DNA from: Pseudomonadota bacterium
Lineage (GTDB): Bacteria > Desulfobacterota > Desulfobulbia > Desulfobulbales > SURF-16
Direction: 5' to 3'
NCBI GenBank assembly: GCA_018897105.1
Contig: JAHILF010000114.1
Coordinates: 1 to 45,814 of the forward strand
DNA: 45,814 nucleotides
The notes below the pieces were generated by a model that saw only the letters and a list, made by a program, of their open reading frames with translations, had not been told where the DNA came from and did not search any database. Positions 11,799 through 16,718 of this stretch are shown here, one piece after another. The position numbers and the translations under genes are program-made. Each line of letters opens with the position of its first letter. Position 1 is the first letter of the stretch.

Positions 11799-12611
11799 AT
11801 GATGAATCCGCTTGATGTGCTGAAACGAACACCGAAATCTAACTGCGGCGAATGCGGATATCAGGCGTGCCTGGCCTTTGCAGCCAATGTTGCCAGAAGC
11901 GGCGAAGATCCGCAGAAATGTCCTTATATCAATCTCGACGGGCTGACATTGGCAGAAAAGGACAGCACCTCTCTTGATAAAATGGCCGAAAAGCATGATC
12001 TGGAACTGATCCGGCACCTGCAGGACAAAATCAGCGATCTCGATTTCCCCACAATTGCCGCTCCACTCGGGCTGTCATTATCTCCGGACGCAAATGACGC
12101 TCTCACCTTTCCCTATCTCGGTCAGAGCGTTTTACTCAGCAAATCACAGCTACTGATCAACGGCAAGGAACCGGAAGATCCCCGGGATCAGATTCTCTTA
12201 TATAATTATGTCTATTCAGGTGGAGCCGACCCTCCGAGCGGGATCTGGACGGGTCTTGAAAGTCTGCCCAATTCGATCTCCAAGATAAAAACCCTGGCCA
12301 CCTACTGTGAGAATCGTCTGGCGCAACTTTTTGCAGGTCAATCACGCGACACGATACTATCGTTGTGCGCGCAACTGGGAGGCAAACCAGCCACGGGAAC
12401 CTCAGCCACTGCCTCAGCAATCATCCCGGTCCTGCCACACCTGCCTCAGCAGCTCCTCTTCTGGGACGAAGAACCTGAGGATGGTTTTGATGCCAAGATA
12501 AAAATCCTTTTCGATAAAAACGTTCTTGATTATCTTGATCTGGAATCCCTTGTTTTTTCATCTGAACGCATGGCGGACCGGCTTATGTTACTTTTTTCCA
12601 AGGCAAAATGA
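11799..12611 (+). CDS. DUF3786 protein with CoFeSP-like [4Fe-4S] motif
   Basis: A 270-residue protein. The N-terminus carries a cysteine motif CGECGYQACLAFA followed by CPYINLDGL (Cys at about 17, 20, 25 and 43). This resembles the [4Fe-4S] domain of the corrinoid iron-sulfur protein large subunit and related 'Fe-S domain' proteins. The remainder fits DUF3786, with FPYLGQSVLLSKSQLLING, a DQILLYNYVYSGG segment and a LPQQLLFWDEEPEDGFDAKIKILFD segment near residues 220-246. A redox or corrinoid-related role is plausible. The divergently transcribed RACo-like activator nearby supports this but does not prove it. It overlaps the start of rarA by 4 bases (ATGA). Confidence 0.75.
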   Translation: MMNPLDVLKRTPKSNCGECGYQACLAFAANVARSGEDPQKCPYINLDGLTLAEKDSTSLDKMAEKHDLELIRHLQDKISDLDFPTIAAPLGLSLSPDANDALTFPYLGQSVLLSKSQLLINGKEPEDPRDQILLYNYVYSGGADPPSGIWTGLESLPNSISKIKTLATYCENRLAQLFAGQSRDTILSLCAQLGGKPATGTSATASAIIPVLPHLPQQLLFWDEEPEDGFDAKIKILFDKNVLDYLDLESLVFSSERMADRLMLLFSKAK

Positions 12612-13927
12612 AAGGGACGACAACCGACAGAAAACCCCTGGCTGAAAGAATGCGGCCGCAGCAGTTAGAGGACTTTGTCGGACAGGCCCATCTGCTCGGT
12701 GAAGGGAAAATTCTCTGGCGTCTGCTTGATGAAAACCATCTCCCCTCCCTGCTTCTCTGGGGGCCTCCCGGCACCGGGAAAACCACCCTGGCAAGAATTC
12801 TCGCCAGATCCACCGGATCCCATTTCATCTTTTTCTCGGCAGTGTTGGCAGGTGTAAAGGAAATCAGGCAGATTATCGATGAAGCACGGCAGATGCAACT
12901 CACCGGGGCGACAACGATTCTCTTTGTCGACGAAATACACCGCTTTAACAAGAGTCAGCAGGACGCTTTTCTCCCCCATGTCGAAAGCGGGCTACTCACC
13001 TTGATCGGGGCCACAACGGAAAACCCGTCATTTCAGATCGTGGCCCCCTTACTCTCCCGCTGCCGCGTGCTCACCCTATCTCCTCTGACGCCGCAGGATC
13101 TTGAGCAGATTTTTCATCGCGCTCTGCGGGACCCAAATAATGGCCTGGGCGAGTTGCATCTTCATTTTGAAGAACAGGCCATTGAACACCTCATAGCCAT
13201 GGCAGACGGCGACGCACGAAGACTTCTCAACAGCATGGAAATCACTGCTTCTCTTGCCGTTCCGGACAAAAACGACTCAAGAATCGTTTCTCTTGAGATG
13301 ATGAAAGATGCATTCCAGAGAAACAGCCTGCGTTATGACGCCACAGGGGAAGAACATTACAACCTTATTTCCGCTCTGCATAAAAGCCTGCGTGACAGCG
13401 ATCCCGATGGTTCGCTGTACTGGCTCGTTCGCATGCTGCGCTCCGGCGAGGATCCCCTCTACATAGCACGACGCCTGATCCGTTTTGCCTCGGAGGACAT
13501 CGGCAATGCCGATCCGCAGGCATTAACGGCTGCCTTGAATGCCAGAGAATCATACCATATGCTCGGCTCTCCGGAAGGAGAACTGGCCATCGCCCAGGCG
13601 GTAATCTATCTTGCCACAGCACCGAAAAGTAATGCAACATATGCCGCTTACAACAAGGTTATGCAGGATATCGAACGGACCGGCAGCCTGCCCGTGCCGC
13701 TGCACATCCGTAATGCCCCGACCAAACTCATGAAAGAGCTGGGTTACGGCAAAGGTTACCAGTATGCCCACAACTCCCCCTCTGCTCTTGTCGACCAGGA
13801 TCATCTCCCGGAGGAGCTCAGTGGTGCACACTATTACGAGCCCTCAAACAGAGGGCACGAAGCAATTATTAAAGACCGATTGACGAAGTGGAGACAAATC
13901 CTTTCACAGCGTAAGACCAACACCTAA
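12608..13927 (+). CDS. rarA: Replication-associated recombination protein A (RarA/MgsA), AAA+ ATPase
   Basis: A 439-residue AAA+ ATPase of the clamp-loader clade. The N-terminus reads PLAERMRPQQLEDFVGQAHLLG, Walker A is GPPGTGKTTLA (about 53-63), Walker B is ILFVDEIHRFNKSQQD, sensor 1 is LIGATTENPSF, and GDARRLLN is near sensor 2. The C-terminal half carries the MgsA tetramerisation region, including SDPDGSLYWLVRML and IRFASEDIGNADP. It acts on stalled replication forks with SSB. Length matches the family. Its ATG overlaps the stop of the DUF3786 gene, so the three genes from 11537 look like one operon. Confidence 0.95.
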   Translation: MKGTTTDRKPLAERMRPQQLEDFVGQAHLLGEGKILWRLLDENHLPSLLLWGPPGTGKTTLARILARSTGSHFIFFSAVLAGVKEIRQIIDEARQMQLTGATTILFVDEIHRFNKSQQDAFLPHVESGLLTLIGATTENPSFQIVAPLLSRCRVLTLSPLTPQDLEQIFHRALRDPNNGLGELHLHFEEQAIEHLIAMADGDARRLLNSMEITASLAVPDKNDSRIVSLEMMKDAFQRNSLRYDATGEEHYNLISALHKSLRDSDPDGSLYWLVRMLRSGEDPLYIARRLIRFASEDIGNADPQALTAALNARESYHMLGSPEGELAIAQAVIYLATAPKSNATYAAYNKVMQDIERTGSLPVPLHIRNAPTKLMKELGYGKGYQYAHNSPSALVDQDHLPEELSGAHYYEPSNRGHEAIIKDRLTKWRQILSQRKTNT

Positions 13928-13938
13928 AGGAGAAAACC

Positions 13939-15489
13939 ATGACTACTTGCCTGCGCCTGATCTGCATCATTTTCCTCCTTTTCTTGCCTGTAACGCTTCT
14001 TGCCGCACCGGCAACAGGAGATATCACCCTTTTTTACTCAAATGATGTGCATGGCGCAACCGAACCTTGCGGTTGAAAGGCCAAACAACTGGGCGGTCTG
14101 TCCAAAAGAAAAACCTTATTTCAGCAACTCGATGCCAAAGAGGACCATGCTCTGTTTCTTGACGCGGGAGCAGTCTTGTTTAACAAAAGCAAATTTTCCC
14201 CGGGCCATCATCTTGACCTGGCAAAAATTAATGCCGCCGGTATCGTGGAAGCCTATAATATCCTTGGTTATGAGGCTGTTGGGATCTCCAGAATTGATCT
14301 TGCCGGAGGGGTGGAGTTCTTAAAGCAATTACAGAAAAAATCTAAATTCACCTGGCTCAGTGCCAACGTCATTGATTTGCAAAACAAAAAACCTCTTTTC
14401 ACCCCTTTTATCATTAAGAAAAAGGCAGGAGTGCGCATAGCCATTATCGGCCTCTCAGGAAGCGGCGCGGCGAATGAACCCCAGGAACGCGAGAACTACC
14501 TCATCCTTCCCTGGCAGGATCTGCTGCCAAAAATCATGAAAGAAATCAGCAAACAGGCTGATCTTGTCATCCTGTTATCCAGTTTATCTCCTATGGAAAA
14601 CGAACTGATCAGCCGGGAATTTCCCCATATCCATATTATTATTCAGGCGGGGATGTACTCCCATAATCAGAATCCTGTTCTGACAAACAACACCTTGGTC
14701 TGCCAGGTGGAAAAGCAGGGAAAATACATAGGTCAATTGCGTATCGATTGGAAGAGTAACGGTAAATGGACAGATGAAACAACCGATACAGCTCTCATGA
14801 AGAGACAAGAGCTTGACCGGTTAACATGGCAGATAAAAAAGCTGGAAAGTCAAGGAGACCCGCAAATTGTCTATAAGGATACTCCCGCGACTCTCGAGGC
14901 TTATTACAAGCTTATTGAACGAATGAAAACCATTGAAAAGGAAATCAACGATTTGCATCAGCAGTTGCAACAGTCACCGGAAAGTTCCACCTATAATAAC
15001 ACCTTTTTAGCGATAGCACCAAGTCTTGACGACGATCCTGCCATGAATGAAATCATAAGTAAAACAAGGGACAAAATTAATTCTCTTGGCAGAAGGGGGA
15101 GCAGCGATGGCACCCTGAGTGATTATGTGGGTAGTCAGGCCTGTATGAAATGCCATAATGAAATAGGAGAACGCTGGCAACGGACACACCATGCCCATGC
15201 GTATGAAACCCTGGTCGAGAAAAAACAGCAATTCAACGTCCAATGTCTTCCCTGCCACGTGACCGGTGTTTCCATACTTGACAAAAAGCAATCAGCAGCC
15301 CTATCGCTTCCTGATTCCTTGCTCAACGTCGGCTGTGAAACCTGTCATGGGCCGGGTATGGCGCATTCGGTAAATCCCGAAGAAGCAAAGCTTAACGATG
15401 CCCCTGATGCCTACCTCTGTCTTCAGTGCCATAGCACTGAGCATGATGGAGCATTCCATTTCGAGCAGGATAAAAAACTTGTTCATTAA
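13939..15489 (+). CDS. Secreted UshA-like/tetrahaem cytochrome c fusion with in-frame UGA read as selenocysteine
   Basis: The frame from the ATG at 13939 (AAGGAG at good spacing) gives a signal peptide (hydrophobic 5-21, LLAAPA cleavage region) and a metallophosphatase-like start, LFYSNDVHG. It then reads EPCG, UGA at codon 46 (14074-14076), then KAKQLGGLSKR and on without a break to 15489: 516 residues with Sec46. In cytochrome-linked UshA-like proteins I know, this spot reads EPCGC, so the UGA replaces a cysteine. A bSECIS-like hairpin sits 13 bases after the UGA. The N-terminal calcineurin-like site is degenerate: no GNHD is seen where YEAVGISRIDL stands. The C-terminal part is cytochrome c554-like with four CxxCH motifs (CMKCH, CLPCH, CETCH, CLQCH). 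It probably acts in the periplasm in electron transfer, with a C44-G-U46 redox pair. Substrate unknown. Annotation pipelines would start it wrongly at 14176. Confidence 0.85.
14090..14104 (+). promoter_or_regulatory. bSECIS-like hairpin after the UGA codon
   Basis: TGGGC (14090-14094), loop GGTCT (14095-14099), GTCCA (14100-14104): a 5-bp stem (one G-U pair) whose apical loop starts with GG. The loop begins 18 bases after the UGA, in the range used by bacterial SelB. The E. coli fdhF loop is AGGUCU, which is strikingly similar. It lies within the coding frame, as bacterial SECIS elements do. Confidence 0.7.
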
Positions 15490-15730
15490 CAGGAGAGCAA
15501 CAAATTGAGAACTTGTTCGTTAATAAACTTTTCAGGAACCACCCCGCCTTTTGAGACGGGTTTTGTTGTAACGATTGAGCGCCACCATGGCATTTACTTC
15601 GCGGGATAATCCAGCAGGAGCATTGAGGATTGCAAAAAATTTCGCAGGGCCGGCTTACCTTTGCTTGAGTAAGAAGCGACCAAAGCTGTCCAAACAGATG
15701 CGAGAATTAATTTTCGGACAAGCTTTAAAT
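15490..15730. other. Intergenic stretch, no convincing gene
   Basis: Between the cytochrome stop and the shared terminator. A short hairpin (CCCCGCC near 15543, GACGGG near 15556, then TTTTGTTG) could end cytochrome transcription. A 103-codon open frame crosses the region into the ppaC 3' end, but it has no family features and overlaps ppaC antisense, so I do not call it. It may hold decayed sequence. Confidence 0.35.
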
Positions 15731-15770
15731 AAAAAAAGCCGCGCATCCATAAGGATGCACGGCTTTTTTT
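15731..15770. terminator. Bidirectional rho-independent terminator
   Basis: An 11-bp outer stem (A7GCCG with CGGCT7), one C-A mismatch, a 6-bp inner stem GCATCC/GGATGC and loop ATAA. It has a T run on either strand. It serves ppaC from the right and probably the cytochrome gene from the left. Confidence 0.9.
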
Positions 15771-15788
15771 ATTTAATAATAACTGAAC

Positions 15789-16718
15789 TTAGCAGCCGAA
15801 AGCTTTCTGCAGATTCGGTACGGTTTGTTTTTTGCGGCTCATCATGCCATCAATCCACATTGAATTTCCTGAAAGTTTGGAATTGAAAGCTTTCTCAATG
15901 ATAGAAGGATCATCGGAAACAACCATCAGATCGGTTCCTTCCTTGACAACGTCGGTAAGCATCAGAAGAACTGAATGACGTCCCTCTGCCTTGACACGCT
16001 GCATTTCTTTATAAAGATCATCGCGCATAGGAGCAACCTGATCAAGGGTGGCAAGCTCGAGCTGTCCAACACCAACTTTGCTGCCCTTCATATCGAAATC
16101 TTTGTAATCGCGGAAAAGAAGATCTTTTATCGGAACGCCATCAACGGCTGATTTGGCTTTGAGCATCTCCATGAACAATTCGTCCATGTTGCTGACGCCG
16201 GCAACTTTGGCGAGATCAGCACACGCTACTTTGTCAGCAGGGGTGCAGGTGGGTGACTTGAAGTTTACGGTGTCGCTCAAAATTGCGGCAAGCATGATGC
16301 CGGCAATATTTTTGGGGATTGCGATGCCGCTGTTTTTGTACATCTCATTTAAAACGGTGCAGGTGCAGCCAACAGGCTGTGCATTGAAATAAATGGGATT
16401 GTTGGTGGTGATGTCGCCGATTTTGTGATGGTCAACAACGGCAACCAGATCAGCTTTCATGATGTTTGCAGGGGCCTGGGCAATATCGCTGTGGTCAACC
16501 AGAGCAATTTTCTTGCCTTCAGCATCACTGATCTGCTCGGGAGCGGTCAGACCAAAACGGGCAAGAACTGTTTTGCTCTCAGGGTTTAAGTTAGCGGCAT
16601 CGATCTGCATGCAGGCAACAGCGTCCTGGCCCTGGGCTTTCAAAAAATTTGCATAAGATATTGCTGCAGCAACGGAATCAGTATCTGGATTTGAGTGGCC
16701 AACTACACTAATAGACAT
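15789..16718 (-). CDS. ppaC: Manganese-dependent inorganic pyrophosphatase (DHH family II PPase)
   Basis: A 309-residue cytoplasmic enzyme that hydrolyses pyrophosphate to phosphate. The metal-site motifs are all present: GHSNPDTDS (residues 7-15), VDHSD (about 74-78), VVDHHKIGD (about 93-101) and AAILSDTVNFKSPT. The C-terminal DHHA2 domain ends in MMSRKKQTVPNLQ with the conserved SRKKQ. There is no CBS/DRTGG insert, so it is the short unregulated form. The start is set by a perfect AAGGAGGT 9 bases upstream. In sulfate reducers this enzyme pulls sulfate activation by removing pyrophosphate. A candidate promoter lies about 70 bases upstream. Confidence 0.96.
   Translation of the reverse strand: MSISVVGHSNPDTDSVAAAISYANFLKAQGQDAVACMQIDAANLNPESKTVLARFGLTAPEQISDAEGKKIALVDHSDIAQAPANIMKADLVAVVDHHKIGDITTNNPIYFNAQPVGCTCTVLNEMYKNSGIAIPKNIAGIMLAAILSDTVNFKSPTCTPADKVACADLAKVAGVSNMDELFMEMLKAKSAVDGVPIKDLLFRDYKDFDMKGSKVGVGQLELATLDQVAPMRDDLYKEMQRVKAEGRHSVLLMLTDVVKEGTDLMVVSDDPSIIEKAFNSKLSGNSMWIDGMMSRKKQTVPNLQKAFGC

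Follow-up and report, generated by a model that had tools for sequence, protein, structure and literature searches.

UshA-like selenoproteins with a CxU motif form a family that is already known. The family is listed in PMC2398784 (2008) and also in PMC9312934 and PMC13188914, and NCBI provides a model for it, NF041198, named 'UshA-like (seleno)protein' (UshA_like_PCGU). The suggestion in an earlier note on this DNA that such a family had been overlooked thus fails. Among the papers listed in literature searches that reached few subscription journals, none treated the function of the family by its title or abstract start. With Sec written as Cys, the protein encoded in the window (the whole analysed stretch of 45,814 nucleotides) scored 618.4 bits with NF041198 (curated cut-off 275), and the match extended over residues 9–509 and profile positions 2–519 of 519, the haem part included. 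The PCGU motif is shared, the haem part belongs to the model, and no essential difference was found; the window protein is a member of this family.

Several other described systems resemble parts of the protein. UshA and SoxB are like it in the fold class of the N-terminal domain, but the window protein reached only 52 against a curated cut-off of 600 for UshA 5′-nucleotidase and 57 against 550 for SoxB, and it differs from both in having lost most metal ligands and in carrying a CGU motif and a cytochrome. 'UshA-like (seleno)protein family 2' (NF049981), listed as CxxU and not CxU in PMC13188914, has a related UshA-type domain with Sec; yet the window protein scored 54 bits, where the cut-off is 140, and the 262-position model is shorter than the two-domain window protein. 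The C-terminal four-haem domain is similar to cytochrome c554 (PF13435, 53 bits, cut-off 20.8; four CxxCH motifs), and PDB 1bvb matched the family profile with an E-value of 6.7e-15; here, however, the domain is fused to a Sec-bearing one. MccSep (PDB 9wt8), a multihaem cytochrome c selenoprotein, and ExtKL (NF040886) are also haem selenoproteins, but the similarity is no more than marginal (E 0.0037 over profile positions 388–430 for the former, 15 bits against a cut-off of 250 for the latter).

Within the order, 239 of 257 genomes matched the query at E ≤ 0.001, weak and haem-part-only matches included; in the phylum, 65 of the 158 genomes drawn matched the family alignment at E ≤ 1e-30, haem-part-only matches again included. 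The comparisons below use 58 distinct genes with Sec and 13 with Cys, a set of best hits and hand-picked rows that is not a census and in which related species are not independent. L017 and L018 were dropped as copies of L015 and L014, and L039 is absent from the 58-gene and 46-row counts and from the tree. Among the matches listed, three contigs (G265:C97, G301:C35, and G377:C129) carry two adjoining UGA-bearing UshA-like stretches, one in a short frame and the other in a longer frame that includes a haem part; these might act as partners.

The reading frame and its C-G-Sec site

As described in the earlier note, a continuous frame runs from a signal-peptide-like start through DVHG and EPCG to a single UGA, continues with LGGLSKR and ends, after a domain with four CxxCH motifs, at TAA (Table 1). 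The gene starts 11 bases past the stop codon of an AAA+ ATPase gene. With standard decoding, the ORF listed in this frame begins at the TTG at 14176 and encodes 437 aa, so that the first 79 codons are lost, which was likewise anticipated.

Table 1. Features of the selenoprotein locus (positions in the window)
Feature	Position	Strand	Remarks
DUF3786 plus Fe-S domain protein	11799..12611	+	frequent further-upstream neighbour
RarA/MgsA-type AAA+ ATPase	12608..13927	+	frequent upstream neighbour within the order
AAAGGAG, ribosome-binding-site-like	13926..13932	+	overlaps stop codon of upstream AAA+ gene; read directly
UshA-like tetrahaem selenoprotein gene (NF041198)	13939..15489	+	516 aa, Sec46, stop TAA
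Signal-peptide-like stretch, residues 1-22	13939..14004	+	judged by eye
UshA/SoxB-type domain, residues 28-283 (limits approximate)	14020..14787	+	most metal ligands replaced; low-confidence model and Foldseek
P-C-G-Sec motif	14065..14076	+	UGA at 14074-14076
Candidate SECIS apical hairpin	14090..14104	+	stem UGGGC (14090-14094) / GUCCA (14100-14104), loop GGUCU (14095-14099)
Cytochrome c554-type tetrahaem domain, residues 401-516	15139..15486	+	
Haem-binding motif 1, CMKCH (402-406)	15142..15156	+	
Haem-binding motif 2, CLPCH (436-440)	15244..15258	+	
Haem-binding motif 3, CETCH (466-470)	15334..15348	+	
Haem-binding motif 4, CLQCH (494-498)	15418..15432	+	
DHH/DHHA2 phosphoesterase	15789..16718	-	frequent convergent downstream neighbour

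The homologues carry at this site either UGA (58 distinct Sec genes) or Cys (a paralogue on contig C62 of the same genome and 12 further genes), and both flanks of the UGA are conserved among them, with no sign of decayed upstream sequence. Around position 46, which is conserved as Sec or Cys, Gly45 is present in 71/71 genes and Cys44 is kept in 57/58 Sec and 13/13 Cys genes. One member (L083) keeps Sec and has Ser at the place of Cys44 (SGU), while L092 reads CGGU and L078 CGSGU instead of CGU. In these three, Sec is retained but its partner Cys is lost or displaced, so a simple C-x-U couple does not hold throughout the family.

The haem part varies as well. Twelve of the 58 Sec genes have no CxxCH (L074, L075, L078–L080, L082–L085, L089, L090, and L092), and no ORF with two or more CxxCH motifs was found beside haem-less members at the two loci looked at (L110 and L111). 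Haem coupling is thus not essential to the family. Together with the SGU, CGGU, and CGSGU members, these haem-less ones speak against one mechanism for all. In the 58 members with a haem domain, His 418 and 476 are the only His residues outside CxxCH that are invariant (58/58), while His 502 occurs in 50/58.

Probable selenocysteine decoding and the conserved hairpin

The genome of the window (4.95 Mb, 177 contigs) contains the machinery expected for Sec decoding: selA on C151 (616 bits), selB on C165 (373 bits), selD on C135 (380 bits), which carries one in-frame TGA itself, and a tRNA-Sec on C51 (71.5 bits, cut-off 47). Among 25 genomes examined, selA was found in 19. The six without it comprise the five genomes of genus g29 (G071–G075) and G114. 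The five family genes listed for g29, one per genome, are Cys forms; selA occurs in 0/5 of these genomes, and their best tRNA-Sec scores are 45–47 bits, two of them narrowly above the cut-off, vs. at least 67 bits in the other 20 genomes. G114 (L073, L109) departs from this pattern: it is a two-contig, complete-looking genome in which the UGA form, selB, and tRNA-Sec are present, yet neither a profile nor a protein search detected selA. The same search found selA in seven other genomes, five of them from G114's own genus. The missing selA in G114 may be due to a gap or an absent stretch in the data, or to a true loss.

A 5-bp hairpin with a loop starting with GG follows the UGA where the earlier note had located it, with 18 nt between the UGA and the loop. 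According to PMC13188914, a bSECIS element has a loop of 3–9 nt, a stem of 4–16 bp, a distance of 16–37 nt from the UGA, a G within the first two loop positions, and a minimum free energy of at most −7.5 kcal/mol. With its 5-nt loop, 5-bp stem, and 18-nt distance, the hairpin falls within the published geometry. The 26 nt with the hairpin have a folding energy of −5.7 kcal/mol, short of the limit of −7.5 (z −1.47; 23/200 shuffles as good). The 40 nt that start at the UGA fold best in another way (−5.9 kcal/mol; 101/200 shuffles as good), and a 61-nt stretch including the hairpin passes the limit with −11.1 kcal/mol but does no better than its shuffles (127/200 as good). Judged solely by its folding energy, the hairpin is ordinary and within chance. 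An Rfam scan of 13800–14400 gave four matches, all far under the gathering scores.

It is the comparison of relatives, not the folding energy, that lifts the hairpin beyond chance. All five stem pairs form in 63/63 Sec rows from within the order (62 loci, one gene being counted twice as L039 and L103) vs. 2/13 Cys rows. In the 46 distinct Sec rows, 100% of cells are paired, compared with 18.7–60% in controls with slid partners, and 8/500 shuffles do as well as the real rows. Of the five pairs, two are invariant among these 46 rows, hence uninformative by themselves. The loop-closing pair is C-G everywhere but in L092, where a compensating A-U is found. Codon usage was examined in 39 columns with an amino-acid conservation of 85% or more among Sec genes, Met, Trp, and Cys being excluded. 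In the 58 distinct Sec genes, Gly52 is encoded by GGC in 57/58, Leu54 by CTG in 57/58, and Gly53 by GGT in 51/58. The codon entropies of Gly52 and Leu54 (0.13 bits each) are tied as the lowest of the 39 columns and that of Gly53 (0.65 bits) is the fourth lowest, while the remaining conserved glycines range from 0.92 to 1.94 bits. In Cys genes, columns 52–54 show 1.42 to 1.67 bits, and Gly52 is GGC in 7/13. Similarly, Arg56 is AGA in 13/13 Arg-bearing Sec rows vs. 3/9 Arg-bearing Cys rows. In 11 Sec genes outside the order the exact five-pair stem is not formed (1 or 2 of 5 pairs). Judging from their letters, these genes may form a stem shifted in register, CTT or CTG preceding GCC where the others have CTG ahead of TCC or CCC.

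With selA, selB, selD, and tRNA-Sec in the genome and with the hairpin pairing in Sec vs. Cys relatives, we consider this a genuine selenoprotein gene, and the UGA is most likely the Sec codon of an exported four-haem redox protein. The reading of UGA as Sec, the Cys of relatives at the equivalent site, and the SelB-type hairpin, all proposed earlier, are thereby supported. The standard code reads UGA as a stop, and with a TTG start available at 14176 the locus might be taken for a pseudogene, or for a short peptide upstream of a cytochrome whose translation reinitiates. Against a true stop, 58 distinct relatives share a single UGA at this codon and 13 have Cys there, the whole frame of the window gene shows dN/dS values of 0.17 and 0.12 relative to its near Sec relatives L015 and L014, and the hairpin is conserved at silent sites, all of which makes a real stop extremely improbable. 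On the evidence of the relatives, Sec46 would be inserted at the UGA via SelB and tRNA-Sec, guided by the hairpin.

An UshA-type domain with a largely lost metal site

The N-terminal domain has an UshA/SoxB metallophosphoesterase fold from which, as the alignment shows, most metal ligands are lost. AlphaFold gave a pLDDT of 45.6 for the whole protein (4 sequences) and 54.7 for the N-terminal domain, with the first 77 residues, Sec46 included, below 50; the N-terminal model was used solely for assigning the fold class via Foldseek, and no geometry was read from it. For the comparison we used D41, H43, D84, N116, H117 (the catalytic His), and D120, metal and catalytic positions of UshA. They were mapped through a profile alignment, in which later His positions map only roughly. 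Asp36 (UshA D41) is kept in 46/58 Sec and 13/13 Cys genes, and the D120 place is Asp in 57/58 and 13/13, respectively. His occupies the H43 place in 11/58 Sec and 6/13 Cys genes, including the window protein (His38). The D84 place is Asp in 1/58 Sec and 3/13 Cys genes, the N116 place is Asn in 0/71 genes, and the catalytic H117 place is His in 2/58 Sec and 0/13 Cys genes, being Arg in the window protein. Around the roughly mapped places of the later UshA His residues, mostly Ser, Gln, Ala, and Gly are found. Counted over five UshA positions (D41, H43, D84, N116, and H117), none is kept in 10 of the 71 genes, one in 43, two in 15, and three in 3. The window protein keeps two of the five, Asp36 and His38, and has neither the full dimetal site nor the catalytic His; since these two residues are retained, it may still bind some metal.

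These data divide the earlier description of the protein as 'UshA-like': it holds for the fold, but probably not for the activity. A working UshA-type 5′-nucleotidase or phosphoesterase with a fused cytochrome would agree with the resemblance to UshA, SoxB, and CD73 in both fold and sequence, with the widely kept Asp residues at the D41 and D120 places, and with His38. At the same time, the D84, N116, and catalytic His residues are nearly or entirely missing from the family, no more than two of the five positions survive in 68/71 genes, and the domain alone has no Pfam match at E ≤ 1 (with filters that drop most weak matches). We regard nucleotidase activity as improbable, and a C-G-Sec redox site wired to the haems as likelier. 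Sec46 or Cys44 might instead serve mainly as a ligand of a metal or of haem iron, in binding or sensing rather than as a thiol-type redox couple. This would suit the member in which Sec is retained although the partner Cys is Ser (L083) and the finding that only His 418 and 476 are invariant extra His residues, so that a second His ligand may be missing from some of the haems. The near-universal Cys44, on the other hand, fits a C-x-U couple, and the 12 members without CxxCH still have Sec; a ligand role is thus unlikely, though less so than a nucleotidase. Under the preferred reading, a redox couple, the Cys44-Gly-Sec46 site would exchange electrons with the fused c554-type tetrahaem domain, and the protein would most likely work in the periplasm, reducing or oxidising a disulfide or a sulfur compound by two electrons that the haems carry singly. 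That the substrate is a sulfur compound is a guess, prompted by relatives named Desulfurivibrio and Desulfobulbaceae.

A probable duplication, the Cys paralogue, and gene order

The paralogue on C62 (G000:C62:16403-17950, L002/L093) is 74% identical to the window gene, has Cys at the site, no internal stop, and four CxxCH motifs, and scored 588.3 bits with NF041198; it reads DVQG where the window gene has DVHG. Among the matches listed, it has counterparts in G242 and G239. A quick tree of the family requires four Sec/Cys changes. In this tree the three Cys genes group together with an unstarred support of 93. Their neighbours are three Sec genes from the genus (94), and all six form a starred group (95) inside a larger Sec set. 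Ahead of the three Cys copies lie rarA tails of 83–89 aligned columns, which share 84–87% identity with the rarA end and the ribosome-binding site behind it; a further rarA remnant (117 columns, 74%) accompanies the C62 copy. Because such remnants precede the Cys copies while an intact rarA-type gene stands beside the Sec gene, the Cys gene appears to be the duplicate. The remnants and the tree support a duplication, in this genus, of the Sec locus with part of rarA, after which the copy would have changed Sec to Cys.

Five hairpin pairs can form in the C62 and G242 copies (with a G-U closing pair in G242) and four in that of G239, which, as expected, would fit a decaying SECIS relic. For some families, SECIS remnants in the Cys homologues had been described as early as 2006 (PMC1794560); the phenomenon is therefore known, and only a case is added here. 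The dN/dS values between the Cys copies (0.28 and 0.24) indicate that they are apparently under selection. Directly downstream of the C62 copy Pfam identifies a PAS/sigma-54 activator, and the other two genomes likewise have one downstream of the Cys gene. C176 carries a frameshifted 3′ remnant (L003, 1413–1647) with 87% identity to the C62 copy across 242 columns, a further, third copy in decay. Sec and Cys genes also co-occur in one genome in G253 and G256, which belong to another branch of the tree (among the matches listed).

The order DUF3786, rarA, Sec gene, and convergent DHH gene (window 11799–16718) recurs within the order of the organism, with a rarA-type gene at 21/23 loci, DHH at 17/23, and DUF3786 at 14/23, some flanks being short. 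The two loci without an adjoining rarA-type gene are the Cys copy L093 and L111. Outside the order, a rarA-type neighbour was found at 0/11 loci with at least 1300 nt upstream (L117 and L118 left out; two sets of near relatives, L130–L132 and L125 with L126, included). We therefore dropped rarA as a functional operon partner and take the adjacency as inherited gene order, not as a functional link.

Taken jointly, we put a probability of about three in four on the following reading: an exported NF041198 selenoprotein that is not a nucleotidase, whose C-G-Sec46 redox site is coupled to the haems, and whose Sec locus was duplicated with a Sec-to-Cys change. The Cys copy could serve as a backup under low selenium. 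A bolder and rather doubtful proposal is that a largely metal-stripped UshA/SoxB fold has become a haem-wired selenium redox enzyme and, in one lineage, has split by duplication into a switch pair within one genome: the Sec form would occupy the ancestral rarA locus, and the Cys form, beside the sigma-54 regulator, would take over when selenium is short, the rarA remnants and the relic SECIS being the footprints of this split.

As such, the assignment as a selenoprotein is nothing unusual in this bacterial group. What the analysis adds is the largely lost metal site, the strict constraint on the RNA, and the duplicated Sec-to-Cys pair. The data suggest that 'UshA-like' proteins of NF041198 are better not annotated as nucleotidases, and the nucleotidase-like family name is probably misleading. 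The locus further provides a case of a Sec-to-Cys change after duplication in which the parent gene is still in the same genome; such a Sec/Cys pair in one cell would make the advantage of Sec over Cys testable.
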